Assembly: GCA_950295325.1 (NCBI GenBank)
Contig: OX485806.1
Location: 38,504,001 to 38,568,000 of the forward strand
Source of the DNA: Polytrichum commune
Lineage: Eukaryota > Streptophyta > Polytrichopsida > Polytrichales > Polytrichaceae
Reading direction: 5' to 3'
DNA: 64,000 nt
Part shown: positions 9,553-30,349 of the stretch, one piece after another
Layout of the letters: each line of letters starts with the position of its first letter
Numbering within the stretch: the first letter of the stretch is position 1
The notes under the pieces: model-generated
Databases searched by the model: none
Seen by the model: only the letters and a program-made list of their open reading frames with translations
Told to the model about the DNA's origin: nothing
Made by a program: the position numbers and the translations under genes

Positions 9553-10056
9553 CTTTGACAAACGCAGCGACAAAACTAACTAATACCAAAGTATATATAT
9601 ATATACTATTAAATTTACAAACAAAATATAATAACAATTTATAAAGTATTATTAAATACTATAATACTATATATCAAAACAAACAAAAAGCATAATATAA
9701 ACATAATGACTAAACCAAATACATCCCTCTATCATACACAATCCTACGCACCTTACTTTCCAAAGATAAAGAAAATAAGGTCAAAGAAAAAACTTATAAC
9801 ACAACACAAAAAAAACCTTACAACAATAAATAAATACCACAACCACAACACAAACCAAACGGTCTCGGCCTACCGGCCTCGACAAACAAAAAACCAAACC
9901 AACAAAACCTATCAACATACCTATAACAAAATCAAACAAAACACATACAGAAACTACGAAAACATACGATATCGTCTAAACCAAAATATGGAAAGAAAAC
10001 CTAATAAAATATGGGAAAGATATTTAAATAAAAACCCCCAACAAAAAATAACACCA

Positions 10057-10119
10057 AATTACGCCCTCAACTACCTCCTGCTAGCACAATGTGGCGACAT
10101 TGAATCCAATCCCGGCCCA
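10057..10119 (+). other. 2A ribosome-skipping peptide
   Basis: Residues 118-138 of ORF2 end in DIESNPGP, a full match to the 2A consensus D(V/I)ExNPGP, preceded by the usual hydrophobic stretch (NYLLLAQCG). In known 2A peptides the ribosome skips the last Gly-Pro bond; here that would be between G137 and P138 (10116/10117). It would release the basic leader from the downstream endonuclease-polymerase polyprotein. The motif is directly visible; activity is inferred. Confidence 0.88.
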
Positions 10120-10187
10120 ATGCCCAATATACTACAGAATCACCCAACCGCTCATAAAAGACGATACTCAACCTACTTTATACCTAG

Positions 10188-10191
10188 CACT
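10188..10191. repeat. Target-site duplication, left copy (CACT)
   Basis: CACT abuts the left inverted repeat and matches CACT at 29001-29004 after the right one. The last three bases are codon ACT of LINE ORF2, and the same codon is repeated at 29002-29004. Confidence 0.85.
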
Positions 10192-10213
10192 AACACTATA
10201 TTCGTTAAATTGA
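10192..10213 (+). repeat. Left terminal inverted repeat (22 bp)
   Basis: It is identical to the reverse complement of 28979-29000 over 22 bases; similarity ends at the 23rd base on the inner side and at the CACT boundary on the outer side. It contains CACTA two bases in, but a CACTA start gives no matching duplication. Confidence 0.9.
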
Positions 10214-10309
10214 AATTTTTTGGGCATTTTGAGACATTCATAGAAATAAGAACAAGGATAAATGGAACACATATTGGTGAAAGTTGTAAGATGCGAACAC
10301 TTTGAAGCG

Positions 10310-10765
10310 GGTGCTTAGACCAAGAACCCCATTAATAACTCATATTTGTGATGGTATAGGGTGGGCAATCGAAACCTTAGACCAAATTGAAGGGGACATC
10401 TTAAAACATTCATATTAATGCACACAAAATATGAGAGCTTGTATGAATATGGTTTAGGTAGGGCAATCCAAACCATAGATCTTATTGAAGGGAAAACCTT
10501 AAAACATTCATATTAATGCACACAAAATATGAGAGCTTGTATGAATATGGTTTAGGTAGGGCAATCCAAACCATAGATCTTATTGAAGGGAAAATCTTGA
10601 AACATTCATATTAATGCACACAAAATATGAGAGCTTGTAATGTATGGTTTAGGTAGGGCACTCCAAACCATAGATCTTATTGAAGGGGAAATCTTAAAAC
10701 ATTCATATTAATGCACACAATAAGGCACTCCAAACCTTAGACCATATTGAAGGCAAAATCATGTG
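10310..10765. repeat. 98-bp subterminal tandem repeats, ~4.5 copies
   Basis: The motif TTAAAACATTCATATTAATG recurs with spacing 98, 98 and 97 (10401, 10499, 10597, 10694), flanked by partial units. Each unit contains GGCAATCCAAACC or GGCACTCCAAACC. The reverse-complement core GTTTGGAGTGC occurs near the opposite end of the element (about 28788). Subterminal repeats of this kind bind transposase in several plant DNA transposons; that role is inferred. Confidence 0.85.
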
Positions 10766-10895
10766 ACACTTATATTATTGCAAAAAAAACAAAAAAAACA
10801 CGTAAAATGCATAGCATGCTAACACCACACATCCATTGGATAGTGTGACCCAAAATCATATTGCCTATGGTCCAAAACCCTACGCCTACTATGGC

Positions 10896-11696
10896 CTATC
10901 TAGCCTCGGAGACTGCCTCTATCTCTTTTGCCTTTTTTTCTTTTGCTTCTTTTGTTTTTGCTTCTTTTTCTTTTGCTGCGGCTTCTTTTGCTCGCATTGC
11001 TTCAACATTCCTGAAAATCTCCGCCCCGCGACTATAGCCATTTTTGGGTTGACCGCCCTCTATAACACATTTTGGATTCCGTTGGCCACCCGAATTATAC
11101 GACGAAGAATTCGAATACGATGAAGTGGACTGTCTTGCATTTCTGGTCATGGAGTAGAAACGCTCCAACTCGACGGACACACTAGACCGCATAGGTTTAC
11201 GGGTGGGAGCAACCTGCAACGCGTGAATGCAAGAACACACGTGTTAGTTTAGGGAGGAAGACCCAAACGTGTCACACGTTCATTTTTTAAGTGCTGGATG
11301 ATTGTAATGCGCGGATAACCATGTTTAGGGGGGGGGGTTCACCTTGTCACCGGGGGCGTTCCCGTCGGAGTCGGTGAGGAGGGGCAATGCGTCCCGCAAA
11401 GGAATAGGAAGGGTTCCACTCTTCGTTGGCCGAGCGTCCATCCGCAGCCACCGTTGAGGTGTACTACTGCCGCCGGGCCGAGAGGGGGACGTCCGGACGC
11501 ATTTGCGATTTATGCCCTTGAGCGGCGACGGGGACGCAGATCGCCGGAAGATTTGCTTGGGTGGGGGGCTATCGACGACGCCGGCGTCAAGAGGCTCCTT
11601 GGAGTAGTCAATGGTCGACGCGGCGTCGTAGACGGTCTCGTAGAAGAAGCTCCCCAAGTCTGACTCGCTGACGATGTCAATCGAGGGCTCCAAACG
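10896..11696 (-). CDS. Cargo gene with Lys/Glu/Ala-rich tail, 5' end unknown
   Basis: Two exons join in phase 0: 11696 to 11343 (acceptor TTTGCGCCAG; donor AAG|GTGAAC) and 11213 to 10896 (acceptor GCGTTGCAG). The first encodes a Ser/Pro-rich, acidic segment (SESDLGSFFYETVYD, KQIFRRSASPSPLK). The second encodes an Arg/Ser-rich stretch (RKPMRSSVSVELERFYSM) and then a repetitive charged helix (AKEAAAKEKEAKTKEAKEKK), probably a coiled coil. It lies 164 bases downstream of the phosphatase-like gene on the same strand and could be its 3' extension or the end of a longer transcript. I recognise no family. Confidence 0.5.
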
Positions 11697-11859
11697 CTGG
11701 CGCAAAAAAGGAAACGAAACAAAACCCAAGGGAGGAGGGTTTGATAGAGCACGTGAAAATCAAGATACATATGAAGCATATATTACACAAAATGAAAGGG
11801 CGCGCGCGCCCACACACACACATACATACATACATACACATACAAACACACGTAGTGTC

Positions 11860-12672
11860 TCAAATGAGCTTGTTAAATTTCGCGTGAGATAACAACTCTC
11901 TGTACAAATGGTCTCGTGGATCCAAGTATCTCTCGCCTATCGGATTGTTCCTAACAAAATTGTTTACGGGCAGTCCGCTTCCGCAGAGCGCCTGGAGGTA
12001 TTTACCAAGGTCTAACAAAAATCGGTCCCGGACCTTCTCGACCGTCCAGGTAGGGCAAACTATGAGGTTGGCCGTCGGGTTCAACATGTTCTTTGCGGCG
12101 CTGTCGTCCACCATGAGCGTGTTCTCGCGGGTGGGACGGACGTCGTAGGGGACGCCTATCAAGGACGGCCGCTGGTCCCAAAAAATGGGCTTCAAGACCT
12201 TGAGGTATTGGGGGGAAGCGGGGTTGTTTGGTTTTTTGACGACTTTGCCGTCCGGTGTGTACAATATTCTACAGGCTTCCTGTGCTAGGACCATGCAGGG
12301 GGGCTCGATGCCCTTGAAGATGAACTCCACGACGGCATTGGTGTTCTCGGCCGTCATGGAGCTCCAAACAACCACCCACCATCGTTGTTGGGCCAGCTGG
12401 AGGAAGGTCCGAAGCCACGGGCGGAGGTGAACTAGCTTGCTCTTTATGAACGTGGGCGGGCCGTCGTAATTCGCGTCCTCGGGCTTGCAAAAGGGCACCG
12501 TGGGGGTCCTCGGGCAATGAACGCATTGGACGAGGACCCCGTTCAGGTCTAACACCAGGAATCGTTTCTTCGGCCGCGGGGGCGGGGCGGGTAAAATCGG
12601 GGGCGCCGCCGTGCTGCCCTCTCTGCTCCTTGGAGAAGAGCGTCGGGGAGCCGCTACGCTATGCTCCGAGCC
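11860..12672 (-). CDS. FCP1/NLI-type phosphatase-like protein (HAD fold)
   Basis: The family removes phosphate from proteins such as the RNA polymerase II tail, using an Asp nucleophile in a DxDx(T/V) motif. Here KKRFLVLDLNGVLVQ supplies motif I as DLNGV, so the first Asp is kept and the second is Asn, a change also seen in plant FCP1-domain/TIM50-like proteins. WVVWSSMT resembles motif II, and LMVDDSAAKNM the acidic motif with VDD. The first ATG within the domain (12555) is too late: an open Pro-rich leader (PPILPAPPPRPKKR) continues upstream to an acceptor-like CCGCAG at about 12673, so a 5' exon is missing from my model. The C terminus (ELLSHAKFNKLI, stop 11860) looks natural. It sits between the other minus-strand cargo genes. 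Confidence 0.65.
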   Translation of the reverse strand, partial: GSEHSVAAPRRSSPRSREGSTAAPPILPAPPPRPKKRFLVLDLNGVLVQCVHCPRTPTVPFCKPEDANYDGPPTFIKSKLVHLRPWLRTFLQLAQQRWWVVVWSSMTAENTNAVVEFIFKGIEPPCMVLAQEACRILYTPDGKVVKKPNNPASPQYLKVLKPIFWDQRPSLIGVPYDVRPTRENTLMVDDSAAKNMLNPTANLIVCPTWTVEKVRDRFLLDLGKYLQALCGSGLPVNNFVRNNPIGERYLDPRDHLYRELLSHAKFNKLI

Positions 12673-12711
12673 CTGCGGATACGATCGAGAGAAAATGGTG
12701 GGCGACTTATG

Positions 12712-13146
12712 TCATGCTATGTCCAAACGAAGCATTAAAGAAACGAGTGTTCTCGGTGCAAACACAAAACCATTTGATTCATTTTGGAGGGGGTGCAACA
12801 AGGGACACAAGAGAGGCAAGAGCATACAACATACATTCAAACACAGGATACAAGTATATAGGAGTAAAAAATGGCGATTATATTGTATACAATGCTCTAT
12901 GTACATCTTGATTGGGGGGAGCCGCGTTGAACGATGCGTTCAAACTAGCCTACTTCTACATCTAGCAAAAATTGAAGAGACGGGCCGCCGTGATGAAGAC
13001 TTCGTCGCAAGCCGGGGGGGTATGTGGACGAACGAATGGTCGGGGGGATGTGGCGAAGGGCGCGAGTGCCGGGGGGGGGGAGATGTGTGCGTGAGTTTAG
13101 GGTAGCTAGGGGACACGACCAAGGCAAGAAGACAAAGACCCAGGGA
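12712..13146. other. Intergenic or intronic gap in the transposon
   Basis: I see no coding exon here on either strand. The open plus-strand frames lie opposite the minus-strand gene set and lack protein-like composition. It contains a G-run (about 13070-13080) and ends at the palindrome at 13147. Confidence 0.4.
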
Positions 13147-13168
13147 GTTTGGGTCGACCGACCCAAAC
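13147..13168. repeat. 22-bp palindrome, centre AC
   Basis: Arms GTTTGGGTCG and CGACCCAAAC are perfect. It lies downstream of the donor-like site at about 13187 of the minus-strand gene, so it is probably intronic. Confidence 0.9.
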
Positions 13169-13177
13169 TGAGTGGGG

Positions 13178-13778
13178 TCAGTGCATTACCTCGCCTTGGT
13201 CATGCCTCGACGACGTTGATGCCGGCATCGCGTGCGTTGCCCCACCTCTGTTACCGCCGCCTCCGACGACGACGTCAGCCGCAACCTGCTCTTGCAAAGG
13301 CTGACTGTCAGGCCTTTGTCCCAACCCAACCTCCGCATGCGCATCATGCATTGGTTCATCGACTGGGTTAGGAGTAGAGGTATCACCAGGCCCTTGCGGG
13401 CCTTCAACATCTAACATGGGCTCATCCACCGGGGTCTGATCGGGGACGGGGTTTGGGTCGGCCGACCCAAACCCTGCTACTTGGCGAGTGTCGCTCTGGG
13501 ACGCTGCAACGTCGGCACTGTTTGGGTCGGACGACCCAAACATGTGGGGGCGAGAGGATGGGAGGCCGGAGCGGCGGGGGTGCCAACGAGCTGGAAGCTC
13601 CGGGGACGCGCCAAAGGTTGGGGTCGTCCACCTGCTGGACGGGCGCGTAAGGGCGGGCGTGTGGCTGCAGCAAGTGCGCGAAGCTGAAGGACTGCTGCGG
13701 CGCCGGCCGCGGGCGGATATCCTGTGGAGGGAAGCCTGCGGGCAAGTGAGGGAATGAACTCGGGGGAGCCATCACCAA
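13178..13778 (-). pseudogene. Proline-rich continuation of the methyltransferase-like gene
   Basis: This follows an in-frame TAG (13782-13784) in the upstream gene with unbroken low-complexity coding character (MAPPSSFPHLPAGFPPQ, then APPPLRPPILSPP). A second frame, 13543-13178, continues as Asp/Pro/Glu-rich sequence (DEPMLDVEGPQGPGD) and ends at a donor-like GAG|GTAATG near 13187. Two 22-bp palindromes (13451, 13520) sit at the change of frame and are translated as GSSDPN/VWVVRPK-type residues. Either an intron lies between the palindromes or the copy is frameshifted. No domain is recognised. Confidence 0.45.
13451..13541. repeat. Two 22-bp palindromes (13451-13472, 13520-13541)
   Basis: Both have perfect arms with centres GC and GA. 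They flank a 47-base segment where the minus-strand reading frame changes, consistent with a small intron or degenerate exon. Confidence 0.9.
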
Positions 13779-14718
13779 TCCCTACGCCAGCATGCCCTGG
13801 ATCACTTGCGTGATCAGGTCCGCTTGGGACGGAGGTGGGGCCATCGCCCTTTGCCGCTCCTGCTCCAACAGGAGAGCCCTCAACTCCGCGACTTCGTTGC
13901 GGACCGAGGGCTCCTCGGCGGCGGCCTTTTGCAATCGGACGCGTTGCTCCTCGTCCCGGAGCATCTTCGCGTTGGCCTCCTCCACGGTGAGGACCTCGGG
14001 TTTCACCCTCACCATCCCGGCGAACGCTGTGGGGGAGGCAGGATCCGACCTCAGCCTCTTCGCGAGCTCCATGTCGTCCTCGTCCTCGGAGCTTATGGCG
14101 ATCGTCTCCTCCACCGCATAATCGCTGTATAATTTCTTCCCCTTCAGCATTCGCCGCTCCCTGAAGGTGGCCATCGCGTCCCTCGAATACATGTCCTTCG
14201 CGTCGGCCACCGTGAGGACGGGCACTAGCTTGCTCTGCAGCGTGGCAGCTCGCATGGCCTTCTTCCGCTGAGGGGCCTCGGATTCTTGAGTGAATCATGT
14301 TGCCCCTTCCTCGACCTCCCCCTCCACTTTCTCTGCTTCCTCCTCATCCTCCTCTTCCTCCCCCTCCTCTGCAACCTCGCCACCTGCTCCCATAGACGGA
14401 TTGCCCGGATGCAACCCGATGAGCGGCTCTGGCAATTGAACGGGGGCGCGCATGGCGAATTCACCCGGGTTGATTCGCCTCGCCATATCCAAAGGATTCT
14501 CGCCCCCCTCGACGATCTCTTCGACGTAGGATCCGGGTATCCAGTCGAGGATGTCCATTCTCTTCGCCAGCGCCTTCTGGGTCTTGTAGAATTGAACATC
14601 GGTATCCTCCACATAGGAGTAGATGTTCAACCCAGACATCTGCACAATCCAAATCAATAGTATTAGTATCACAAATGAAGAATAAGCAAAAATGACACCC
14701 AAAAAACAATAATAGTTA

Positions 14719-14776
14719 GTTTGGGTCGCTCGACCCAAACTGTGCATGCCCATAGTTTGGGTCGCTCGACCCAAAC
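14719..14776. repeat. Two 22-bp palindromes in an intron (14719-14740, 14755-14776)
   Basis: Both have perfect arms and the same centre, CT. They lie inside the intron 14640-14809 of the methyltransferase-like gene. Confidence 0.9.
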
Positions 14777-16200
14777 CAGGCATATACATCCACGAGGTTA
14801 GTTTCTTACCATTGCTGCAAAAACCGGTTTGGAGCCCCCGAAGACGTTGAAGATGAAGTCCCCCCTCTTCGTGAGGGTCCTCATCATCCGCAGGTAAAAA
14901 TCCATCCGCAGCTCATCCGCGGGGTAGTTGGCATACTTCGCCTCGTCGTACAAGCTTCTGCTGGTGCCCAACCCTTCTGGGACTTGGAAAAGCTTTTCCA
15001 TCCGGGCTATAGGATGGTTTGGCACCTTCAGCAGCTCAGCTTTGTACACGAAGTACAAGCACAGCACACAGACTATCTTCGTCTTCTTGTCTTTCAATGA
15101 GCTGTACGCCCCCTCCGCCGGTACAGCAACGTAATGAAATTTTGAGACGGCGTACTCTGGTTGCAATTTACGCACGATCTCGTACACCTGCTCCGCCCTC
15201 CTGTCCTCGACAATCCACAACCAGACGTCGACCTCCCTGAATTTGGGGTTGGCGTAGTCCACGAACTTGGTGAAGAACGGCTCGTAAAACGGGGTGCTCA
15301 TTGTCCCCTCGAATGACGCTCCAGGAATGTTCCTGAAGTCTATCATTCCGAAGGGGAATCGGTCCCCGGCTGCAGTCCTGATCGCCTTCCTAGCATCAGA
15401 GCCCGGCCAACCTTGGATCTTTAGAGGCTCGAGGGAGACCAAGTTGAAGTGAGCTTCGCCCTCGAACCTGACGATCTTCTTCTCCTTTATAAAGTTGGAG
15501 AAGGCACGCGCGGAGTGTTCGGGAAGCGCCCGGTTCCTCCCACCCTTCACGAACTTGGACCTGAGGAAGTCGTCTCCCGCCTCCCTCATGAGTGCCGCCA
15601 TGGACGCACTGGTGAACTTGTACTCGGCTTTGAATGCCCTCCAGTGCACCTCGTCAACCTCTCCGTCCACGATGAGCTTCTTCTCGGGCACCAGCTTGTG
15701 CAGCTCTTGGACGATGGTCGTCTTCTTCTTCCTGTTCTCCGTCCATTCCTTCAAGGTGTAGCATGAAGGGACGAAGATCTTAGGCTTCGTGAAGACGATC
15801 TTCGGGTGAACCCAACATTTCTTCGCCGTCGGCTGCATGTGGAGGATGTGGGACGCCGCCTTTCCCACCTCTGTCTCCGAGAGACCTTGAAGAGCTCTGA
15901 AGAGCTCCCTCACCAGTGGCTTCATTTGCTTGAAGCGTGTAGTCTGGTTGTACAGAATGCCGGTGTCGGAATCGATGAGGTCTCCCGTCTCGTGTTTTTC
16001 GAAGACAGTCTTCCATTTTGTCCACACGGAGTCGGACGCTGTGATCAAGTAGATTTCTCCTCTTAGCTCGTTATATTTTTTTTGCTTGTGGCTAGCGTTG
16101 TCAATAGAGGAGAATTTATTGATCATCTGGTATTTGAAGTCCTGTACATGAAGTCAAGAACATATGTTAGAGAACACATCATGAAAAAAATGGAACAGTA

Positions 16201-16336
16201 GTTTGGGTCGATCAACCCAAACTTTAAATCTCATGAAGACTATAAGACAATCCAGCAGTTTGGGTCGATCGACCCAAACTTTAAATCTGATGAAGACTAT
16301 AAGACAATCCAAGAGTTTGGGTCGATCGACCCAAAC
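16201..16336. repeat. Three 22-bp palindromes in an intron, 57-bp period
   Basis: Copies at 16201, 16258 and 16315 share the centre AT and near-identical linkers (CTTTAAATCT...GAAGACTATAAGACAATCCA). The first has one arm mismatch (CAACCC). They fill most of the intron 16142-16344. Confidence 0.9.
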
Positions 16337-17696
16337 TTACTCACCTCCCATTTTGGGTTCTTGTCTTTTGCATTCTCCCTTTCCTTGGGAGGCCTGCCAT
16401 AGAACTCCCACACATCCCTCGAGGCCATTATATTCCTAATCCAGGATGCCTGATACGCCCTCTTTTTATTCCCCATGTTGAAAAACCTGGAGATGTCACT
16501 GAGGACGGTCTCGTTGTCCGACCAAACCACCAGTGCCTTCCATACCTTCAGCTTCTCCTTCTGGTTGTTGGGGTCGTCCCATTCAGTCATCAGCTGGATT
16601 TTTTTGGAGGCCTCGACACTGTGCTGGCCGTCAATCAGCCAGAAATCTCCTTTAGAAATCGCCGGCCACATATCAGCCGTAGGCATTCTTTTTAGCCCCT
16701 GGGGCATCACGACAATTGTCTGCCTGTCGTCCTTGAACTGCCCGCCCGAGATTTGAGCGACCATCCAGTCGACATAGGCATCCTCCTTGGCTCGGACACA
16801 CTTTTCAGGTGGCGCAAGGTGGCATTGTGCAATGTTCACCTCGAACTTGAAGTCCCTGCCCATGAAGAAGCAATGGAGGCATTTCATCTCAAAATTGTCG
16901 TTGATTTTCTAAATTTCCCCAGCATCAACCTCTTGGCCAGGCTTGGGCATCCGCAACTCTGGCGAAACTGGCTCGGTGGTCATGACTGATGACTCCCTTG
17001 CCCTTTTCGACGGGGTCGTCTGCCGGCTTCCTGAAGGAGTTGGCGTCTCGCTGTCAGCCGGAGTCGAGGTAGTGCTCAGTCTTCTAGAATCTGCCGGAAC
17101 CGCCAGCGGAATCCTCACAGATTGGGGTCTGGAGGAACCTGCTCCTTCTTCTGTCTTGGCCTTCCGCCTGACAGGCTGTTGCGTTTTTGGTTTGTTTTGC
17201 AACGCTTTATTCAAAACCGTGATCGTTTGTTTCAGTTTTGTGAACCTGCTAGCGACCTTGGTGTTCGATACAGTGCCATCTATGAAGATGGTCTCCGGTT
17301 TTATTATCTCCGTGTCAACGCACGTCTCCTTGGCGTATAGGGGGTCGAAAGCCTCGGAAAATTGGTGCATGAACATATGCACGTTCTGCACTGCGGAGTT
17401 CTCTAGAATAACGTCAACGTGCTCCCCGAGAGCTTGGATGGAAGCAACCTCCCATCCCGTCAGCGTTGCCCAGGTGTGTTGCTCGTGGGTCCCCACTTTC
17501 ACCACGAACAAGAGCATGTACTGGGAGGCTTTCACAACCTGAACGGACCACGCAAGAACGATCCCGCCCTTTGGGACGTATGAGTCGTCCTGTGGAGTTT
17601 CGTACTCCTCCCAAAGGTGGTCTGGGGCGAGCATGAACCACCTCTCTCCAGGTCTCTTTTTAGTGGCCATCTGTAAGTCCAGAAACAAAATTGTTA

Positions 17697-18115
17697 GTTT
17701 AGGTCGATCGACCCAAAGTTTTTCAACTTGGATTGAACATCAGTGCAAATTGAAGGGTGCTCTACTGGCCATCATGAATAGGTTTGGGTCGACCGACCCA
17801 AACCCAAGCCTCGAATAGCCTAATCGTATAAGAATTATTGGTAGAGTTCGGGTCTTAAGAATATGAATATATTGAATATTGTGTAGTGGTTAAATTATCC
17901 AACAGGAGAGCAATTTTTGGTGACCTTCTAGGGCCGCGCTGGACGTATGTGGACATGCCAACAAATATCAGACGATTTCAAACTATAGCCATTTGAATAT
18001 AATTTCTTGTTGATGGTGGGAAGGATGTTTATTTTGGGATATTGGATTTGTAGGTTGCAGAGTTTGGGTCGTTCGACCCAAACCAGCTGCAGAGTTTGGG
18101 TCGCTCGACCCAAAC
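17697..18115. repeat. Four palindromes upstream of the methyltransferase-like gene
   Basis: Copies lie at 17697-17718 (degenerate, GTTTAGG...), 17782-17803 (centre AC), 18062-18083 (TT) and 18094-18115 (CT). They sit in the region 5' of ATG 17670, where promoter or leader introns would be. Confidence 0.85.
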
Positions 18116-18539
18116 TAGCTGCCCAGTTAATTCTTTATGGGTTTGGGGTTTAATATAGAGGTTTCGGGCGTCTACCGAAACCGTAGTGTTTCAATATTCA
18201 TACATAATGTCTTACGCTGCATATACAATGCTTATGCATTGTATATGCATGAAGACCCTAAAGGATATGAAGCATGTTATGTTGAGTGAAATTAGTTACC
18301 TTGATGCAAGCTCTGCCAATCTGATGTTGTTTTGCCAATAGGTTTTGCCAATCTGATTCTTAGAATCAGATTACACCTGAACACTCAGATATCACTAACA
18401 CTCACTAAAATTCCTCTCACTGGATTTCACAAACAACTCACACACACTCTTAATCTCAGATGCACTCAATAGTTTGTTTTTGCAACAACCTGATCCTTCC
18501 AACAAAACCCTAAGCAGTCTGAAATTACTCAAATAACTT

Positions 18540-18870
18540 AAGAACAAAAACACACTTCAAAACAACAAAAACACTCTGAAATCACTACAAGCGCGCACTT
18601 TAATACAAAAACACACTCCTAACCAACAAACACACTCTGAAATCACTCAATGGTCGTATTTTTAAATAAACAACACTCCTAAACAACAAACACACTCAAT
18701 GCAGATACTTTTACACACAAACACACTCAATCACTCAATGCGGATACTTTTACACAAAAACACTACCCTAAACAATAAACACACTCAATGCGGATACTTT
18801 TACACACAAACACACTCAATGCGGATACTTTTACACAAAAACACTACCCTAAACAATAAACACACACTAC
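18540..18870. repeat. AC-rich imperfect tandem repeat
   Basis: Units such as CACTCAATGCGGATACTTTT and AAACACTACCCTAAACAATA recur several times. It is low-complexity DNA with no coding potential. 18900-19300 next to it is a GC-rich stretch in which I see no supported gene. Confidence 0.7.
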
Positions 18871-19830
18871 AATCACTCCTAAACCCTCACAAGAAGAAGA
18901 GAGAATGAGAGAATGAAGGTGAGACAATGCAAGAAGGAGAGAATGGGAAAGGAAGGTGAGACGGAGCCGAAAGGTTGGGGCTAGGCGGAGGCGCCGCTTC
19001 AAGGGAGGCGACGCTTCACGACAAGGAGTCAAAAACGAGGGAGAGAAAGGAGGGAGCTTGGCGCGGAGGGATATTTATAGAGTTAGAGGGGTCGCCATGG
19101 GACCCAATCTGGGCCATGGGAGCGCCCCGAGCCCATCTACGGCTCACAAGCCTCGCGGGCAGCCACCCTGCCATGTGTCAACACCTTATTGGTGATGGTG
19201 GCTACCCGAGGCTTCTGGGGTGCACACCTAGCGCCTAGCGGCCACCCGGCCTCCTGCCCGCCGAAACCCGGCCCCGGCCTTCTAAGCCACTATCTATATA
19301 GGCTTAGCCCAAAAATCGAAAAGCAACATAGCCTAAGGTATTGCACAAAATTAACACCATCACCAACTCTTATTTTAATGGTGTTCAATTCAATGGTCCC
19401 GCGTTGGAATTGCTTACATCATAGAATGAATCCATTATTTGTTTTAGTATTTGAATATTGTAGTCATATGGAGTAAGATGAGAGCGATACAAAGTCTAAG
19501 AGGAGTGTTTCATAAGTATATTGCAATCCTCAAATGCAATTGCACGGTGCAACAATTAAAATATGGTGACAATTTACATGGTCAAGGGTTTAGTGCTCTC
19601 TATTGTAATTTCTATAACCCAAGTTCGTAGAAGATAAGGCTCTAGCCTACAATGGATATTACCCACCCAAGTAGCATTAAATTCAACATTTATATCAGTA
19701 CATAGAAGTTGACATTTGAAGTACATGGGAGATACACAAAGATTACAAATTTATCTACTGCAACCCCATGGAGTTCAACATCATATGAAGCCATGTAAGC
19801 ATTAAGCTTGATGTTCGATGATCCCTCCAA

Positions 19831-19858
19831 CCTAAACCCTAAACCCTAAACCCTAAAC
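19831..19858 (+). repeat. Interstitial telomere-like repeat (CCTAAAC x4)
   Basis: Four exact tandem CCTAAAC units, the Arabidopsis-type telomere sequence on its C-rich strand. Confidence 0.9.
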
Positions 19859-21414
19859 ACCGCAAGCCTTAAATGAATGGCACATAAGGTTAAATGACAG
19901 GGCCTTAGTGCTTGTAGTTTCCAATACAAATGTATATTGTCTTGACAACATCCTAATCATATGTGCTCACGATCATGTCAACCAATATTAAGTTATAACA
20001 ATGTCTGTCTAAAAAGAAGAGTATAATAACTTGATTATAGTATATATGATCTTCATACTAGATTTCAAATGGACTTCATGATAGTTTCAAACATCCTTGA
20101 AAGAGTGAACTAAAAAGTCCTATTCGTGATGGAATTCCCATTAATGCCTTTCACATAGGTTATCCAATGCCACACTTGTATGTTGGACAATGGATCAACG
20201 TTGTGTGCACACATTACAAACGTCACATGTTCCTTTAAAGCTTTTCTCATTTTATTGTTGCAAATTGAAAGTTGGCCAATTTATTCAAATTTGTCATGAG
20301 ATCAATTCCTTGTTTTCAATGTATAAGTCCTCATGTGAAAGTCTTCATAACGACATAAACTGTAATTGTATTTGGTGGCTTCAGCTATATGAAGTTTCAT
20401 AATGTTGCCACATATATTGTCAAGATATTATTTGAAATAAACCATAATATTTGAGTCCAAGTAGAGTAATATCCTGGAAGTACATAATTTAATTTGTATG
20501 CAATGCATCAATGTGAAGTTGTGGAGGATGGGTTCTCAAAATCAGTTATCAAATATCATTTTCTTCCCAATGGTGCATGTCATAGGCACATAAAATGAGA
20601 CAGTCTACCCCCATCAACAATAATTTTAATTTTTTTGACAAATATTGTTATAGGATATTGGAAGATATATTGGAGATCTTTCTTTATCATTTTTTTTCCA
20701 TATCCTTACTAACACTATATTCAAACATGTAACTTCAACATATTACCATAGATAATATTGAGTGTTTGAGTTTACAATGTTTGATGTTACTTACTTTCAT
20801 AGTGGTATTAGTATTGAGTAGATGCGTTCGTATTTAGTGTATCAAACTCTAAATATGTTATGAACTAAACTCCTAAACCCAACTACACAAAATATGATAT
20901 CTAGTGTTTGATACCCTATATACAAGCGCATGCACTAAATATCAATAACCATATGAAAGTCAGTGACATAAAATGTAAACTCTCACAATAAGTATCATCT
21001 ATGGTAATATGTGGAATTTACATGTTTGCAATTAGTGTTAGGAAGGATGTGAAAAGAAAAAATATACGTGAAAGTAGAAGGTAAGCGACACATTTATGTG
21101 TAACAGTAATTGTCAAAGATTTAAAAATTAATGTTAAGCATAGTAGGGTGGTAACAACACTAAATATAATGAAACACACACCCCATATTTTGTGTAGTTA
21201 TTTCATCACGGAATTAGCAATGTCATTTGATGGTTGGCGCCACGAAGAGCCACGAAGGCCACACATTAGTAAACTTGAAGTGAACTTCAAGATGGATTCA
21301 AATATCATTAACAGATTGAACTAAAAAGCGACATTGGTAGTTAGTATCCCTTTAACAACGTCCACATACGTTCCTCATTGGCACACTTGCATGCGAGATA
21401 ATAGAGCAATGTTC

Positions 21415-21434
21415 TAGGGTTTAGGGTTTAGGGG
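21415..21434 (-). repeat. Interstitial telomere-like repeat (TTTAGGG, opposite orientation)
   Basis: About 2.5 units of TAGGGTT, inverted relative to 19831-19858. It abuts the end of a diverged repeat copy. Confidence 0.85.
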
Positions 21435-21847
21435 AGACAAATAAATAATTTTATTCATCACGACAATGGCCTCAAGCCTTGGAAACCCTTTCATAATTGC
21501 AGCCTCTAAATGGCCCAAACCCCACCTAAATAGGTTTACACTTGAAAGCATTGAATGGAGTTAAAATATTTGTTAAAATATACCGTCATGACACTTGAAA
21601 AAATTAATGTGGCCGCCACCCTTCCTCCCAACGGCGTATGTCATATCCACACAAGACAAAAAAAAAAATTAAATATCATAGACTAAGTCATATGACGGCT
21701 GGGGTATCAGAGGGGCATTGAAAGATGCGCATTTTCTACTATAAAAAAAAAATGGGGAATTATGTCAGGAGGTTTGAAATAACCTCTGCAGGAGAACAAG
21801 GCGGGAAAGGCATCCAATGAGGAAGTCCGAGAAACGGAGGTGGATAG

Positions 21848-21854
21848 TATAAAG
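21848..21854 (+). promoter_or_regulatory. TATA box candidate
   Basis: TATAAAG lies in a locally GC-richer stretch, followed by a pyrimidine-rich CTTTTTTGCTCTTCTCC segment typical of plant start regions. It could serve a long-leader transcript of the downstream plus-strand gene or a nested element; no exon is proven after it. Confidence 0.3.
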
Positions 21855-22117
21855 GGACGCACCCCCCAAAAGTCTGTCCTTTTTTGCTCTTCTCCTACTC
21901 TTGAATTCGTAGAGAGAACTCTTAGTCGGAGCTATACTTCAAGGTTCGTGCATGCTGCCGTTCATTAGCACTTATCCACAGCATGCAAGTTCATGAGCAC
22001 CTACCCACAGCATGGAAGCCCACCGTGAACTTTGCAATGAGCTTAAAAACAACACATTTCGGATTATCCGCCGCATTATCCGCCGGATTTTGAGGGTTTT
22101 AGCGTGACTCTTATCAG

Positions 22118-22203
22118 GTTTGGGTCGGTCGACCCAAACCCCTCCGCTACTGTGGGCGGGTTTCAGCCTGACCCTGATCAGGTTTGGGTCGGTCGACCCA
22201 AAC
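22118..22203. repeat. Two 22-bp palindromes, 64-bp spacing
   Basis: Copies at 22118-22139 and 22182-22203 have perfect arms and centre GT. The linker (CCTCC..TA.TGTGGGCGGGTTTCAGC) repeats after each. Short frames translating the palindromes are not genes. Confidence 0.9.
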
Positions 22204-22984
22204 CCCTCCACTAGTGTGGGCGGGTTTCAGCTTGATCCAAACCTATCCCCTCGTGAGGCAGGTACTAGAGTGGACAAGGAGCCCATCTGTGAGGCCAAAC
22301 CCCCCACCCTTAAGCGTCCGTAGTCCGAGTAGTGGGTTTGGGCTCACATTCCTCCGCGGTATTGGATTTGGACTTGGATGAGTCCATAGTGCAAGGTTCA
22401 CCCTTCAAGTGGTCTTGGATTTAACTGGAATTTCACTTTTAACAACTCAATGTACAATTTCAATACGTATGTGGAGAATGCACAAGTTAACTATGTTATT
22501 TTAACCTCCTTATACTCGGGTGCTATTTTGTCTTTGTTTGCTTCTAACGTCCATCCGGCCGTTTTAGCTACACAAGCCCTTAAGGATATCCCTCTCCTAA
22601 ATGGAGTCCGTGCCGTTGACTCTATACTACCACTTGAACTATCACTTGTGTATTCCGTATCGCTACTATAAGAGGTCTCACTTGGTGTCTCCATACCGTA
22701 CATAAGCCTTTAAGTATTAAGAAATACTTATGTGACTTATGTCAATCTCTCCCTCGCACCTTTGGTCTTTGCTTCCTTTGTCTTGCCATCGCGAGAGTGC
22801 TCCACATTCTCCATTAATTTGTGCACGTGGTTTATTTTTAAAGAGAGGATGCAAGTGTTAAAAAAAACACTATTCTCTATAGTCAATCTCAAATACATTT
22901 ACTTGTGAAAGCCACACATAACACTAACTAGCATAATGTAACTAACTACTTGTCTATGAGCTAATTAGGTAGGCTATCTACTAA

Positions 22985-23250
22985 GCTCCTTCATGAACCC
23001 ATCTCTTTACTTTCTAATTACATAAACCTAGCTCCTTCATAAACCCAGCTCCTTCATAAACCCAGCTTCTTAGCTTCTAACTAAACAAACCCAGCTCCTT
23101 CATAAACCCAGCTCCTTCATGAACCCAGCTCCTTAGCTTCTAACTAAACAAACCCAGGTCCTTCATAAACCCAGCTCTTTACTTTCTAACTAAACAAACC
23201 CAGCTCCTTCATAAACCCAGCTCCTTCATGAACCCACAACTTTGTAGTTG
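22985..23250. repeat. Minisatellite of AACCCAGCTCCTTCAT units
   Basis: The phrase (A)AACCCAGCTCCTTCATAA recurs about ten times, interspersed with TTAGCTTCTAACTAAACA blocks. The surrounding 22700-24400 shows no supported gene. Confidence 0.8.
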
Positions 23251-24469
23251 TAATCCCCAACTACCTCACTAATTATTCAAGCCCTTAACTAATCTTCCTA
23301 CCTAATTTCCCTAATTCTACTAACAACCCCTTTCTAATCACACAATTCTTCTCTAATCCTAAAATCCTAAAATCCTAGAGAGGAGAGGGGGAGAGAGAAT
23401 TCCCTAACTTCACTAAGACTAACTAATCCACACAAGTATATTTTTGCACTCATCACAACATCAAGTGCTCAACTCTTAAACATGGAACTTGCAACCACGT
23501 GTATTCAAAACATGAACTTTAAGTACCACAAATTGGAATCATGAATTAACTTTAAAATCCTTCACGTCAACACTAATTCTACCAAGAGGTCAAGCCCTCT
23601 TCAAGGCTAACAAGCCTTGGCTCTCAAACTAAAAACTAAGCACACACATGTGCTCCAATATGGCTTCCCACACCCACACTTATAACTCGTGGGGTGCCTT
23701 GGAGCACAAAGGAAAGAGAGGATGAGTGAGGGAAGAATGAGGGATTATATAGTAAGCTTGAGGGGGTGAGCACCCTCAAGGCTCACGATAAGCCCTTGAG
23801 ATTTCCTCCTACTTAGTAGGCGCCAATCCTATCTTCTAAGCCTTCCTCCCTCAAATGATCAACAAGGATCCTAATTCGAACATTTAACTAGCCTTGGCTT
23901 TCTACCTACCACACTTTACCAAACTTGGGATGCTTCAACCCAAACTTAGCCTCCTTCGCTTTCCGCCGCCATAACTTTCTCCCCTTACTTTCCCAAATCG
24001 TCGCTCACCACTTAATTCAAACCACGATGCTTAACTCGTGATTTGATTGGTGCTTTGAGAATTTGCTTATCCTCCACCTTGCATTCTTCCTTGGGCCTTC
24101 CCCATTAAGTGGCCATGATGAGGTGGTCCACTTGTGCGCTCCATGTGATCCTCCATTCATCCCAATTCGAATGCACTTGCCTCTTGAGTCACTTTGGTTG
24201 TCTCCATCCATTTGTACTAGCCTACTTACTAACTACTCAATCCAAGTTCTCCTTACCTATCCTCATTCACTCAAATCCTTCCGAAGGTAAAAACACAATA
24301 ACAACTCACATCCTAGCCTCTTACAACATGGTACTTCTAAGACTAACATTTCACTTTTTTTATATTTTTGTGAAGTAACATGCTACTTCAAAGTGCATCA
24401 ACTAACGTTTCAAGGGTCTAAGACTAAATGTGGGCACCCTTTTGGGCTCACACCATCCTGGCCCTCAAG

Positions 24470-25194
24470 GTTTGGGTCGGTCGACCCAAACCTATACCCT
24501 CCTGAGGCAGGTACTATGGTGGACACGGAGTCCATCTTGCCCCTCAAGGTTTGGATCGGTCGACCGAAACCTTTACTCTCATGAGGCGGGTACTAGGGTG
24601 GACACGGAGTCCATCCTGCCCCTCAAAGTTTGGGTCGGTCGACCCAAACCTATCCCCTCGTGAGGCAGGGTCTAGAGTGGACAAGGAGCCCATCCTGGCC
24701 CTCAAGGTTTGGGTCGGTCGACCCAAACCTATCCCCTCGTGAGGCAGGGTCTAGAGTGGACAAGGAGCCCATCCAGGCCCTCAAGGTTTGGGTCGGTCGA
24801 CCCAAACCTATACGCTCATGAGGCAGGTACTATGGTGGACACGGAGTCCATCTTACCCCTCAAGGTTTGGGTCGGTCGACCCAAACCCACCCCCACGTGA
24901 GGCAGGTACTAGGGTGGACTTTGAGCCCTTCCTGCCCTATAAGGTTTGGGTTGGTCGACCCAAACCTTATCCCACAGTGGGCATGTACTAGGTTTGACAC
25001 ATCCCATTGCCCTTACATAATTTGGGACGGTCTACCCAATCCATCCCCACTGTGTGGGTGCTCTCTGTTATGAGCCTGAACCCATCTTGCGAAAAGGTTT
25101 GGGTCGGTCGACCCAATTTATCCCCACTGTTTGGATGGAGTCTGGATGACCATGATCCCATCGTGCCACAAGGTTTGGGTAGGTCGACCCAAAC
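24470..25194. repeat. 79-bp tandem array, one 22-bp palindrome per unit
   Basis: Palindromes start at 24470, 24549, 24628, 24707, 24786, 24865 and 24944, exactly 79 bases apart, with centre GT. Linkers are near-identical (CCTCGTGAGGCAGG...GTGGACA.GGAG.CCATC). Degenerate copies continue near 25020, 25097 and 25173. The array ends about 200 bases before the DUF7869-like gene, so it could act on that gene's promoter. Confidence 0.95.
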
Positions 25195-25406
25195 CCAAAC
25201 CCACCGTGTGGATGGGCTCTAAATGATAGTGTGTCCATTGGCCAACCCAAACCTTTACAAAGCCAATGGCATAGCATTCATATGAACATGTATGAACACT
25301 GTGTATTTGCAATATTGTTTATATAAGATGGTTTTTGTATTATTCGATTGGAACCTACAATTTTGTGGTTTCTTGATAAGGTTCAATGTTCATGTGTGTA
25401 GGCAGA

Positions 25407-28400
25407 ATGAATGGGTTTAGTGAAAGAGGGGATTGGTCATCTGAAGATATGGCCACTTGGCCATTTGCATCTGAGGATGAGATAGACATTGTCGGGGAGG
25501 ATACTTTGGCTGACAGTGCAGATGAAGATCATTTGGATTTACCTTCGCCTTCCGTACCGCAATGTCCCATTGCTGAATGTACGGGACTCTCAAGGGCTTC
25601 ATGGGTGAATTTGGAGGTGGTACTTCTTAATGACAGTGGAGTTGTTGTGGCGGAGGGGATTTGTCGCAACACCCATCCACAAGATTGCATTGATGAAAAC
25701 CCGCTTGGCACCGAGGACGTTGGGGTTGTCATATTGGAGTCGCTCGTTCATTCCGAGGTGGATCCCACTCATAGGTTCTCCCTCCGGAGGTGGCCATTGA
25801 GGAATGTCACGATTGATGGTGTTTCCTTGTGTGAACATGAGCAACGACACTTGCAAATCCAAAAAGAGCAGCAATCAAACATGCGGCCACGCAAGGGTCA
25901 AAGAAAGTACGATACATTGGCACGTCCTGCTCCGTCTGCAACTGATTGTAAACGTCAAAGGTTGCTCGGGGAGGAGTCCATTAGAGAAGTTGCCACAAAG
26001 GATTGTTGTGTGCATCGTTGTTGCCAATTGTTTCCCCGGGATAAATTGTTGGCCATCCGCGAAGAAATGTGGCTTGGTGATTTCCGTCTAAGATCCACCA
26101 AAAAACTTGATGTGCATAGGGCGATACATGTGAATGGGGCGGGTCGCAAGGTCATCACCATTAAGAGCATAGACGTGTGTTGCAAGGCATGGTACACCAT
26201 TCATGGTGTGTCGAAAGCGGACTTTTATAGACAAGCTGCTTATGCCAAGGAAGGCCGCCGGTCCCGTCACCATGGGAACGTGGGTTTAAAGAAACCTAGG
26301 GAAGCAACAAGGCAAGCAACGGCTACTCTAGCAACCATAATTGTCCCACTTGCCGATGCAATGCCGCACAAAACACGCACACTCACAACTGGTGAAAAGG
26401 TTGTGGAGAAAGTTCTTCCCACAGGCACAAAATGGAAAGACATATTGTTGGATGTAAATGCAGTTGGGGAGAAGATTGGGTTGGAGCCAATTTCATCGTC
26501 AAAATTGAGTGCAATCAAGAAAGCAAACTTCAGCGAATACATTACAAAAAGACGAGGGGACAAATTTGCAAGGTGCTCTAATTGCGAGAAGTTGAAGCGC
26601 CTTCGGGATGCACACACGATGGGTACCGAGTCGTTTGCGGTGCATCAATTGAACTATTTCAAGCACGTAAACATGCAAGAGGCACACCGTAATGATTACT
26701 ACACAAATAGAGCGTTGTCCATCTCCAGGCCCTTGGAAGTTCTTACGGTCATCCATGACAAAATGGACCATGCCAAGACAGCCTCCCCATGTTTTGCAAA
26801 ACGAATCAAGGCCACGGATGGGTTTTTTAAGTTGCCTGTATCGGTTACAGGTGATCTTCGAAACAATGTTGACATACCCTAAATATTGTTGTATTTTATT
26901 ATGTGATGTACTTGAGAACATTGATTCACTCAAAACGATTTAGACATACATAGATACTAATCACTTTGGGTTGGCATTGTAGGAATGATTGCACATGGAC
27001 ACGGTGATGTCAAGTTTGCCCATTATGCTCTTGATTTGTATCCATCAGATTCAAACCACACGATAGGGTCATTTGCAAGGCTTTTGTGTGATTTAGAGAA
27101 ACCACCAGCCTATTCTTCAGGATTGTTATTTGAAAATACGGGTTCAACACCTTTATATGAAGCAGTGATGGATGGAAAAGATGTATGCTTGCATTCGTTG
27201 CCCGAACCACCCAGTGAACCCGTGATAGCCAAGAAGTTGCCCCCCACTTTGCGTGTCCAATTGGACAATTGTGCCAAGGACAATAAAAGTAGATATGTAT
27301 TTGCATATTGGTCGTTGTTGGTTGCAAAAGGCATTTTCAAGGAGGTTTTTGTGTCCTTCCTATTGGTAGGCCACACGCACGACGATATTGATGCATCTTT
27401 TGGACGGTGGAGCATGAAGTTGCGGGAGGAGGATTTTCCTACAATCCCGTTATTGATGAAGTCGTACATGGATTTGGAGAACGTTCCCGTCATCCCCCAT
27501 ATGATTGAGGAGGTGCCAGACTTCAAGGCATTTATAGAACCTTATATTCGAAGTGGAGCTCATCGATTGATTGGCCATACGAAGGCACAACAATTCCGGT
27601 TCTACATGCGTGACGATGGTGTCCCGGCCATGCAATACAAGTTGTTGTGCACGACACAAGACTGGAGCCCGCCAGAGGGTCTCCTTGTGTGGTGCGTGGA
27701 TGCGGATGGGAAGACCATGTTACCGGATGGAGAGCCTAGGCCTTGCAAGCCAATCGCCATGAAGAATTTGGAGGATATTTTGAAAGGTATATTAGGCTTC
27801 ATTCAATATTGGGAGAGTTTGAAGATAGCGGATGTTGGCGGATCATGTTGGCATCGTTATGGGAGTTGGATACATTATTGGACACGTGTTCGTGCGGCCT
27901 TGGCAGACCTCCACCAAGATAGCCCTCATACTTTGAGGCACGGATTTTGGCCACAAACTCGTATCGATGTACAAGCTTCGGAGGCTAGTCTTTTGAGTAA
28001 TGGAGAGGTTCGTGAGGAGTTTGATATGGACGACCATTACGTTGGGCCTGCTAGTCAACGTCCCCCACCATCTTTCCGCATTGCAGTGGATTGTCATGAA
28101 GGTTATATGCTCATTTTGCGTCCTGGAGATGAGACATATGCAAAGCCAGTGTGGGTGGCAAGAGCTTTGTCCAATCCAAATTTTGTATCTTCCAGCCCTC
28201 ATTTTCGACAAATACAAGTAGAGTACTACCGACCGACAACACGGAATGAAGATGTTGTTCGGCATTATACAGGCTGGGATACAAACCAACACTTTCGGTG
28301 GAAGGTGGATTCTGAGCACGGTCCATCTTGGGTAGATACAGATTCCATATTCATAGCATGGAAACCACGGAAAAATCATAGTGGATCAGTGTCCATCCCT

Positions 28401-28469
28401 CAAAAGTACATAACTTTTGCAAAAAACAACCTTGCTCGGATCGCAGAAGAAGCAACCCACGTTGAATGA
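25407..28469 (+). CDS. DUF7869-like protein, candidate transposase of the 18.8-kb element
   Basis: Two exons, 25407-26850 and 26983-28469, join in phase 1 across a 132-base GT-AG intron (ACAG|GTGATC, CATTGTAG|GA), giving about 976 residues. ATG 25407 is chosen because an acceptor (GTGTGTAG) lies just before it. Exon 1 has an acidic N terminus, Cys/His residues (CCVHRCCQLF; CSNCEKLKRLRDAH) that could bind metal, and DKMDHAKTA near its end. Exon 2 carries LDNCAKDNK and VGHTHDDIDASFGRWS, the signature I associate with DUF7869. Spaced Asp residues (DKMD, LDN, HDDID) suggest an RNase H-fold DDD enzyme. The ORF has no internal stop, unlike the other genes of the element, and ends 531 bases from the right inverted repeat, the usual place for a transposase. 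Confidence 0.75.
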
Positions 28470-28978
28470 GAAGTTGGTAGGATTGTGTTAGCATGATTAT
28501 AGTGTAAACAGTAATTCGACGAATATATATTACTCATATGTGTGCTCCTCAAACTTGGGGCAAAGTTTGGGTAGAACTTGCGAATGCTATATTGTTTGGG
28601 GTTGGATGAATATCCATTTACTATATTTCAATACAATTGTGAAGTTCATTTTTTTATTAAATTTGGGACTAAATTTTCCATTGAAGAAATACGCATTTAT
28701 TGCATGCACTTTGTATGTTGCAATGTCTATATTTTATTGACCATGCTAATAATAGAAATCATTTTATATGTTTCTTGGGTGAAACTAGTTTGGAGTGCTC
28801 TACCCAAAGTGTTTTTGTTGATGAGGTTGGTGTTGAGTGCTCTACCATATGTACTTATGTCCACACATAATAGATTTGGGATATTAGAACATATAATATA
28901 TTTGAGATTGTTCGCAATATAGTTTCGGAACACGGAATGTTGTTTGATCCATATATTAATTTGAGACTAGAGAAAGTC
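28470..28978. other. Right subterminal region of the transposon
   Basis: AT-rich and non-coding. It holds GTTTGGAGTGC (about 28788) and GTTGAGTGCTCTACC, matching in inverted orientation the left subterminal repeat core. Just inside the right end is a hairpin, TTGAGACT ... AGTCTCAA (28961-28982), partly overlapping the inverted repeat. Confidence 0.6.
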
Positions 28979-29000
28979 TCAATTTAACGAATATAGTGTT
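28979..29000 (-). repeat. Right terminal inverted repeat (22 bp)
   Basis: Reverse complement of 10192-10213 with no mismatch, ending ...ATATAGTGTT. Confidence 0.9.
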
Positions 29001-29004
29001 CACT
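29001..29004. repeat. Target-site duplication, right copy (CACT)
   Basis: It matches 10188-10191 and is directly followed by ATAAAACTACAACC, the LINE frame continuation. Confidence 0.85.
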
Positions 29005-29547
29005 ATAAAACTACAACCAGAATACCAACACCTAGCTACTAGCTTCAAACCACTATTCCAAAATACACACCCCCTTCACGGACAAGTTACATCCTCACTC
29101 CCACACTTACACAATTTTATGCAACAAAATACCAACCACCCACCCCCTAGAGTAATATACGCCCTAATTGTAACAATTAGCCCCTCCACCAAAGATTGCA
29201 ACACATACTTACAACAACAACCAACGCCTAATTGGGCCGCACAACTATTAGTAAAAATGACAAATTTACCTAATCCGCCGGAAAGACACGTTGAAACCCC
29301 GCACCCGTATACACAACTCATGTCTACACATCAAGACAAAATATCTCCCCCAAACACAATACACCATCAACTATATGCCTATATACACCGACACGTCATA
29401 CCACCCAATCTTCAGGACCTACAGGCCACGTTCCCATACCTACCCCAACAATTACTTACAGAAGCATTAAGATGTACAGAACCTATCACAGAATACACAC
29501 ACCCTACCCCCCCCCCTGATAGTACACAACCAAATAATGTCACCTAG
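29005..29547 (+). pseudogene. LINE ORF2, linker between 2A and endonuclease
   Basis: From codon 29002 the frame encodes about 180 Pro/Thr/Gln/His-rich residues (IKLQPEYQHLATSFKP...), ending at TAG 29545-29547. The next domain's frame starts at ATG 29537 and overlaps this stop. A run of ten C (about 29506-29516) just upstream is a likely place for a length change, so a frameshift is the simpler explanation. Overlapping stop-start reinitiation cannot be excluded. Confidence 0.6.
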
Positions 29548-30349
29548 ACCAACAACACCCACAAGCCAAGAAACATACATAATAACGTGGAATGCCACGT
29601 CACTCAACACGGCAATGTCATGCCTCCACGAACTACTAACCCACTACCAATACCCCCCAACAGCCATAACCATACAAGAAACCAAACTTACTGCCATAAA
29701 ATCCACCAAATACATACAAAACATCTTCCCACAATACAAACTCTTCTTCAATAATACACACAACATCACACGTACTATACGTCAAAGAATGACACATAGG
29801 AGTCATAGAGGCGGTCTACTCACTCTCATCCATAATAACCATGCATACCCTGGTAACCTATCTAAAATATCCACCCCTGTAAATATATCACATTTTCTCC
29901 AAATAATATGTATAGCTAACCAACCCCTCCAACCATGGCTATTAATAAACATATATATGCCATCCCACGACGAAGATCTACCCCTCATCCCCACCATACA
30001 AACTACCATAATTGAACAAATTAATGCACACCCCAACCACGCCTATGTAGTATGTGGCGATTTTAACCGAGACATAGCACTCATAGGAAGACAAAACGAC
30101 CAACAAATTACACCACCCCAAGCATAAGATTATCAATGGAGGTCATTTACAGACAACTTAGATTTAACATACGTTACAACAAATTCCACATTCTCAAGAC
30201 AAGGAGGAAACAACTACACGCACAACATCCTAATAGATGGCTTCTTCATAAAAACCCCAAACAATAACCAATATAGGTCAACCACAAACCAAGATATAAA
30301 CCTCAACTCTGATCACATACCCGTACAACTACATATCCCACATAATACA
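29537..30349 (+). pseudogene. LINE AP-type (EEP) endonuclease domain
   Basis: AP-type endonucleases nick the target DNA to prime reverse transcription. Seen: YIITWNATSLN at the start (the N motif), TAITIQETKL (the catalytic Glu), CGDFNRDI near 30052-30072 (the GDFN motif) and SDHIPV near 30316 (the terminal SDH motif). An in-frame TAA at 30125-30127 lies between GDFN and SDH, and the coding frame continues unchanged after it (DYQWRSFTDNLDLTYV). CAA to TAA by C-to-T change would explain it. Confidence 0.8.

Follow-up and report, generated by a model that had tools for sequence, protein, structure and literature searches.

A giant DUF7869 transposon family in Polytrichum commune and the family-specific palindromes of a candidate self-recognition system

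A giant transposon within a LINE

The window analysed here is a stretch of 64,000 nucleotides of the Polytrichum commune genome (contig OX485806.1; C4:38504001-38568000). It holds a giant DNA transposon, a member of the family that we call F1, inserted in a long interspersed nuclear element (LINE; Table 1). The original prediction had placed a DNA transposon in the LINE with boundaries exact to the base, and this was borne out. The insert ends in perfect inverted repeats (AACACTATATTCGTTAAATTGA; 0 mismatches, mean of 0 in 100 shuffles), which are longer in sister copies (AACACTATATTCGTTAAATTGAGACTTT), a pair of CACT duplications flanks it, and the reading frame of the LINE closes as AGC ACT/ATA AAA once the insert and one CACT are deleted. 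The joined LINE flank (426 nt) was used as a query against the host genome (407.8 Mb, 64 contigs), and 40 of 253 candidates were scored. The junction was crossed by 38 of these 40 matches (hand count), as had been expected of a rejoined LINE, and the remaining two correspond to the halves in the window itself (query 1-232 and 228-426). Empty sites lacking the insert, also foreseen, exist in other LINE copies: four of the 38 crossing matches were inspected and all four were uninterrupted, with CACT in three and CACA in one.

Table 1. Features of the transposon copy and its host LINE (window positions)
Feature	Position	Strand	Remarks
Host LINE, left part	9613..10191	+	Presumed 2A-like motif CGDIESNPGP; 9613 a provisional left limit
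Left target-site duplication	10188..10191		CACT
Giant DNA transposon copy	10192..29000	+	18,809 bp; 16,639 bp minus the nested insertion and its 5-bp duplication
Left terminal inverted repeat	10192..10213	+	Perfect, 22 bp (~28 bp in sister copies)
Subterminal tandem repeats	10351..10720		98-bp unit, 3.8 copies
Open reading frame (ORF) pieces downstream of NIF-like gene	10896..11759	-	10896-11243 and 11325-11759
NIF/FCP1-like haloacid dehalogenase (HAD) phosphatase ORF	11860..12711	-	PF03031, E=1.5e-14
Palindromic sites (24)	13148..25193		TTTGGGTCGNNCGACCCAAA, <=3 mismatches; 22 outside predicted exons
Gene A exon 3, predicted	13182..14640	-	In-frame stops at 14295 and 13782, then frame change
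Gene A exon 2, splice sites predicted	14815..16141	-	Open in window copy
Gene A exon 1, predicted	16351..17671	-	IDGQHS motif; window copy has one in-frame stop, at 16909
Nested insertion	22288..24452		2,165 bp, TGTGAG...CTCACA, 5-bp duplication CCATC; absent from sister at C1:61.4 Mb
Tandem arrays upstream of transposase gene	24453..25214		79-bp and 77-bp units around palindrome
Transposase exon 1, start/splice site predicted	25407..26850	+	First conserved acidic residue (IHDKMDH)
Transposase exon 2	26983..28469	+	DUF7869 domain, QLDN ... HTHDDID
Right terminal inverted repeat	28979..29000	-	
Right target-site duplication	29001..29004		CACT
Host LINE, right part	29005..35671	+	Endonuclease, reverse transcriptase, RNase H

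This insert belongs to a high-copy family of giant DNA transposons of the cut-and-paste type that has been active recently. With up to three mismatches, the F1 ends occur 1229 + 1222 times in the genome, compared with 2 + 3 for the reversed control. Contig C1 carries 94 exact ends, and neighbours less than 50 kb apart form 36 inward-facing (+/-), 3 ++, 2 -- and 1 -/+ pairs. The inward pairs span 14.4-18.5 kb (21 pairs), 3.6 and 4.8 kb (2) or 22.8-44.1 kb (13). Sequence was retrieved for twenty of the 36 (17 of 14.4-18.4 kb, both short pairs and one of 36.9 kb), and 19 of these are flanked by perfect 4-bp duplications whose letters share nothing by eye, in agreement with the expectation that further end pairs with 4-bp duplications would be found in the genome. 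The two short pairs (C1:11508363-11511968 and C1:42393157-42397936) are among the 19 with duplications, and therefore shortened forms move too, probably mobilised in trans. The window copy is long because of its nested 2,165-bp insertion; main blocks of the sister copy at C1:61.4 Mb, which lacks this insertion, are 92-98% identical to the window copy. Main blocks of two further F1 copies are 95.8-99.2% identical, which indicates that F1 moved recently.

F1 encodes a NIF-like phosphatase and a three-exon gene, gene A, on the minus strand and the transposase on the plus strand. The interior genes had been thought to have no obvious transposition role; this does not hold for positions 25407-28469, which encode a DUF7869 protein (PF25273, E=6e-43) with transposase-like acidic residues. 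Across F1 and three related families, F2-F4, the conserved acidic residues are D (IHDKMDH/Y), D (DNC) and D/E (HTH[DE]D[IV]D), with the second and third 39 positions apart. From the alignment, in which the transposase row of a further family, F6, starts after the first conserved D, these residues would form the catalytic acidic triad. In a scan of ten ORFs of the element no family other than DUF7869 and NIF passed the cut-off, and no relative of the transposase was found in the viral contigs searched. A first look at the genome gave 1862 candidates for the F1 transposase, of which 86 were scored as matches with 95-100% identity. In best-scored subsets, which favour good copies, 76 of 86 transposase exons, 113 of 137 NIF ORFs and 67 of 94 gene A exon-2 matches were stop-free (hand count). 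In the window copy the transposase and NIF are open, and gene A is disrupted by three in-frame stops and a frame change; the copy at C1:34.07 Mb has gene A open across three exons and an interrupted transposase gene. Between subfamilies the ratio of nonsynonymous to synonymous substitution (dN/dS) is 0.11-0.21 for the transposase and 0.15-0.27 for NIF, and both genes are under purifying selection. Against the close copy at C1:61.4 Mb the values are 0.45-1.22, based on very few changes. The original prediction had regarded the interior genes as cargo. NIF and gene A recur in many copies and the set recurs in F4 and partly in F2, so that, together with the purifying selection on the transposase and NIF, all three look like core genes rather than captured cargo.

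Palindromes of F1 and of related families

The palindrome of F1 reads GTTTGGGTCG NN CGACCCAAAC. Six F1 copies contain 20-37 sites each of TTTGGGTCG NN CGACCCAAA (<=3 mismatches), with the outer G...C pair kept in 91-93%. Of these 178 sites 136 are exact; the inner arms show 93-100% conservation, the centre varies freely and the flanks drift, the sites having been selected at <=3 mismatches, a choice that favours apparent conservation. At the same threshold no site was found elsewhere in the window outside the element. Genome-wide there are 9,731 exact F1 palindromes, compared with 0 for the reversed control. A hand-counted tally of location covers 90 of the first 100 exact sites listed: 63 lie inside two end-bounded copies, 18 lie less than 16 kb from an unpaired end and 9 lie in the locus L051, in which a copy of the nested insertion stands between palindrome arrays. 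Changed arm positions in the 178 sites comprise 59 that break the symmetry and 0 that are compensatory. This argues for recognition of the palindrome as DNA, and an RNA hairpin is rejected.

Within the window two of the 24 sites lie in exons; exons make up 7,894 of the element's 18,809 bases. Many sites are part of tandem arrays (units of 57-79 bp) that differ from copy to copy, and the palindromes might on this account be functionless repeat units spread by slippage and gene conversion. We think this very unlikely. The palindrome persists while the array units vary (57, 64, 78 and 79 bp, and others); different array units, isolated intron sites and the two exon sites all carry it; conservation holds for both arms, with drift in the centre and outer flanks; and six groups of elements retain the symmetric layout, each with letters of its own.

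The six groups, F1 to F6, are all DUF7869 elements. Of the 1491 candidates that a DUF7869 search gave in the host genome 150 were scored, and no match turned up in the 14 well-known genomes used as controls. A fetched F2 copy is 25,034 bp long with ends ATGGGGATATTAACTAAAATGAG. All nine F2 copies examined have 4-bp duplications (read by eye), and six F2 right ends agree at 98-100% across nearly all 60-bp blocks of the last 900 bases. The F2 layout is that of F1 (NIF and gene A on the minus strand, transposase on the plus strand), with identities to F1 of 34-51% for transposase pieces and 31-33% for NIF, gene A being only partly found (29%, tblastn). F4 has the gene order of F1, and all three genes were found (transposase 63-64%, NIF 42%, gene A pieces 26-41% identical to F1); no exact 14-22-bp terminal repeat was found between the F4 stretches compared. 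In F6, tblastn found the transposase only (37%), NIF was not found in the stretch fetched, and the corresponding position carries an ORF with VDGQH on the minus strand. For F3 and F5 the transposase side alone was fetched. A minus-strand [DN]GQH motif is present in F1, F2, F4 and F6, that is, in 4/4 families whose interval was fetched.

Each family has a palindrome of its own, and all six share one geometry of 9-10-bp arms and a free 2-bp centre; the original prediction had made no mention of these palindromes. The half-sites are GTTTGGGTCG in F1, CCCACGGGTG in F2, TTTACGGACG in F3, TTTACGAACG in F4, (c)CCACGGGCG in F5 and (g)GGTGAGGCA in F6, where bracketed letters are below 70%. Nine DUF7869 element sequences were cross-counted with up to one mismatch, and each had a single palindrome, with 6-34 sites, and none of the other five. 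Exact genome counts, which cover the palindromes of F1-F5, were 819 for F2, 1,310 for F3, 3,737 for F4 and 208 for F5, with 0 in the reversed controls. F3 is closely related to F4, and F2 to F5; within each pair the palindromes served to distinguish the families, and the half-sites differ by one letter per arm. With one sequence per family, half-site difference tracks distance in the DUF7869 region (Mantel r=0.85), and only the true order of 720 attains this r.

A candidate self-recognition protein and its alternatives

We see an even chance that F1 is a giant DUF7869 transposon whose palindromes are bound by an element-encoded dimer, most likely the product of gene A, and that it escapes silencing in this way. 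A dimeric protein encoded by the element would bind the palindrome, and gene A, with its [DN]GQH motif resembling ParB/DGQHR proteins, is the most likely, putative source of this protein. Gene A protein would then occupy the introns and promoters of its own element, so that silencing is escaped and the divergent genes are activated, and a code private to each family would restrict activation to the family's own copies. More tentatively, it is possible that in a whole lineage of giant transposons each family has its own diverging self-recognition protein and tens of matching palindromes in introns and promoters.

The VANDAL21/VANC anti-silencing system of Arabidopsis, in which VANC proteins bind repeated motifs of their own VANDAL elements and remove methylation, offers a comparison. 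The VANC21 motif, 9 bp long and non-palindromic, occurs both within accessory-gene introns and upstream of the gene for the transposase (PMC5735166). Tandem motif arrays turn over, and the accessory protein is more variable than the transposase (PMC5735166; PMC10398659). F1 is similar in its element-specific, tandemly repeated motifs in gene A introns and upstream of the transposase gene; in contrast, it has another transposase and long palindromes, and gene A lacks a DUF1985 match. Membership of VANDAL was rejected, since neither a Mutator-like element (MULE) transposase nor DUF1985 matched among the element ORFs scanned.

Four copies have a CpG observed/expected of 0.76-0.79, and the remainder of the window has 0.51; this higher value fits either low methylation or a young age. 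Transition/transversion is 0.9-1.4 in five element pairs and 1.6-3.1 in eight LINE pairs, a difference mostly in the expected direction, with age and selection uncontrolled. Between F1 and F4, gene A (26-41% identity) diverges faster than the transposase (63-64%).

Several observations weigh against this reading as a whole. NIF is also fast, with 42% identity between F1 and F4, and between the window copy and the C1:34.07 Mb copy within F1 it is less conserved (75%) than gene A exon 1 (81%). Fast change is therefore not peculiar to gene A. Searches with gene A gave no Pfam match up to E=10 and nothing above chance in NCBIfam, PHROG or PDB, a profile of its GQH region gave two matches in PDB, neither of them ParB, and the alignment-free structure prediction of its GQH piece was unusable (predicted local distance difference test score, pLDDT, 40), as was that of transposase exon 2 (32). 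The CpG-transition ratio does not separate the element (1.3-2.9) from the LINE (1.0-2.0), and transition/transversion reaches 1.6 in F3 and 2.9 in the coding part of one close pair. Two palindrome sites fall within a coding exon, and one of the 20 end pairs, that of 36.9 kb, has no duplication. The rule of one palindrome per family is partly definitional, which the single palindrome per sequence is not. The correlation between half-site and transposase is also expected from common descent alone; common descent alone would not yield the kept symmetry and the uniformity of the sites.

The transposase could be the binder instead. TnpA of Spm/En is an example of a transposon protein that binds sites of its own element, in that case short repeated subterminal motifs; F1 likewise has repeated motifs, but they are internal and are long palindromes. 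The palindromes may accordingly serve the transposase itself or a copy-number autorepressor, with anti-silencing not involved. In all families examined the sites do form clusters upstream of the transposase ORF, and the palindrome sequence tracks transposase distance. We nevertheless consider this rather unlikely: in F1, F2 and F4, gene A and its surroundings hold sites as well, at a distance of thousands of bases from the gene for the transposase, no palindrome is present in the terminal repeats, and gene A changes faster than the transposase, though so does NIF.

ParB also binds palindromic sites, parS, and the [DN]GQH of gene A, found in four families, resembles what we take to be a motif of ParB/DGQHR proteins. 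Gene A protein might thus spread from the palindromes to condense, replicate or segregate an excised circle, making the giant element partly plasmid-like. The distributed palindromes would suit such a role, as would the ParB-like gene on the opposite strand of a giant Sola1 element (PMC12477816). We regard this as improbable, given that gene A shows no kinship with ParB by Pfam or PDB profile and that no partition or replication gene was found among the ten element ORFs scanned. Two weak gene A matches, to NF045752 (E=0.045) and Cas1 (E=0.045), were not above chance and were left unused.

If private self-recognition by gene A is correct, the genome would hold at least six mutually distinct codes and a second, independent case of VANC-type sequence-specific anti-silencing, and the system would possibly derive from a ParB-like ancestor. 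Such a layer may explain how elements of 17-25 kb multiplied (at least 86 near-identical transposase copies scored; probably many more). The six sets, in which a conserved element plan is combined with a diverging palindrome, provide material for tests of protein/site co-evolution and for family-specific chromatin tools. DUF7869, a domain of unknown function, is now linked to transposition with 4-bp duplications.

Placement among known elements and further observations

F1 is most likely Sola-type, a placement taken from the published description of Sola. Sola elements have a 4-bp target-site duplication, a DDD transposase and variable ends, some exceed 15 kb, and they are known from a moss (PMC10741241). 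The giant Sola1-1_Ec32 of Ectocarpus, 21.5 kb long, encodes a ParB-like protein on the opposite strand from its transposase, and this protein has been proposed to bind and modify its own element (PMC12477816). F1 and its relatives resemble these elements in the 4-bp duplications (19 of 20 F1 pairs, nine of nine F2 copies), the great size and the opposite-strand accessory gene, and their transposase has a putative acidic triad. They differ in that gene A has no methyltransferase match and that family-specific palindromes are unmentioned in the available part of the Sola description. The original prediction knew of no described plant superfamily with this combination of features; by description, Sola fits. 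If F1 is Sola-type, the kind of element is already known. In the titles and abstract openings covered, with most subscription journals and Repbase outside this coverage, neither a DUF7869 element nor family-specific palindromes of common geometry in a giant transposon were described, and DUF7869 itself gave no paper.

The interior of several genes had also been likened to the giant cargo elements of fungi. Starships are fungal elements with a tyrosine recombinase captain (DUF3435) and variable cargo. F1 shares with them its size and several genes and nothing more, and it differs in its DUF7869 transposase, its inverted ends with a 4-bp duplication and its recurring gene set; none of the ten element ORFs that were scanned matched DUF3435. 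With these hallmarks not found, a Starship-like element is hardly credible here. Polintons/Mavericks, which encode a protein-primed DNA polymerase B (pPolB) and a retroviral-type integrase and make 6-bp duplications, were rejected: neither protein matched among the ten ORFs and the duplication is 4 bp. The CACTA/EnSpm superfamily, with 3-bp duplications and CACTA termini, was likewise rejected, the duplication here being 4 bp and the ends AACACT... and ATGGGG....

Some further features concern individual copies. The 36.9-kb pair of ends (C1:14111120-14148032) perhaps represents nested copies or ends from two copies. The nested TGTGAG...CTCACA element looks like a non-autonomous long terminal repeat (LTR)-type element; another copy lies in L051 (about 5450-7767), there within a palindrome, and the C1:34.07 Mb copy has a partly related insert within its transposase gene. 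In the fetched F5 transposase copy (L085), N replaces the second conserved aspartate, and this copy may be inactive. The catalytic motif of NIF/FCP1-type phosphatases is DxD. The NIF/FCP1-like proteins of F1 (window 11860-12711), F2 (C4:31913150-31938400) and F4 (L088) have DxN at the expected position and, on this residue, may lack ordinary phosphatase activity. The ORF piece 10896-11243 has a counterpart in two of the three sister copies listed and the piece 11325-11759 in all three; a 54-aa stretch of the latter is 56% identical to one adjoining a NIF-like gene in L053.

In the host LINE, the endonuclease match (E=6e-5) is slightly below the Pfam cut-off. Positions 10090-10119 of the window encode CGDIESNPGP, which we take to be a 2A-like peptide motif and which is, to our knowledge, unusual among LINEs of flowering plants. 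Outside the element the window also contains tandem repeats of ~191 bp (2860-4059, 75-79% matches) and of 219 bp (6110-6543, 98% matches).

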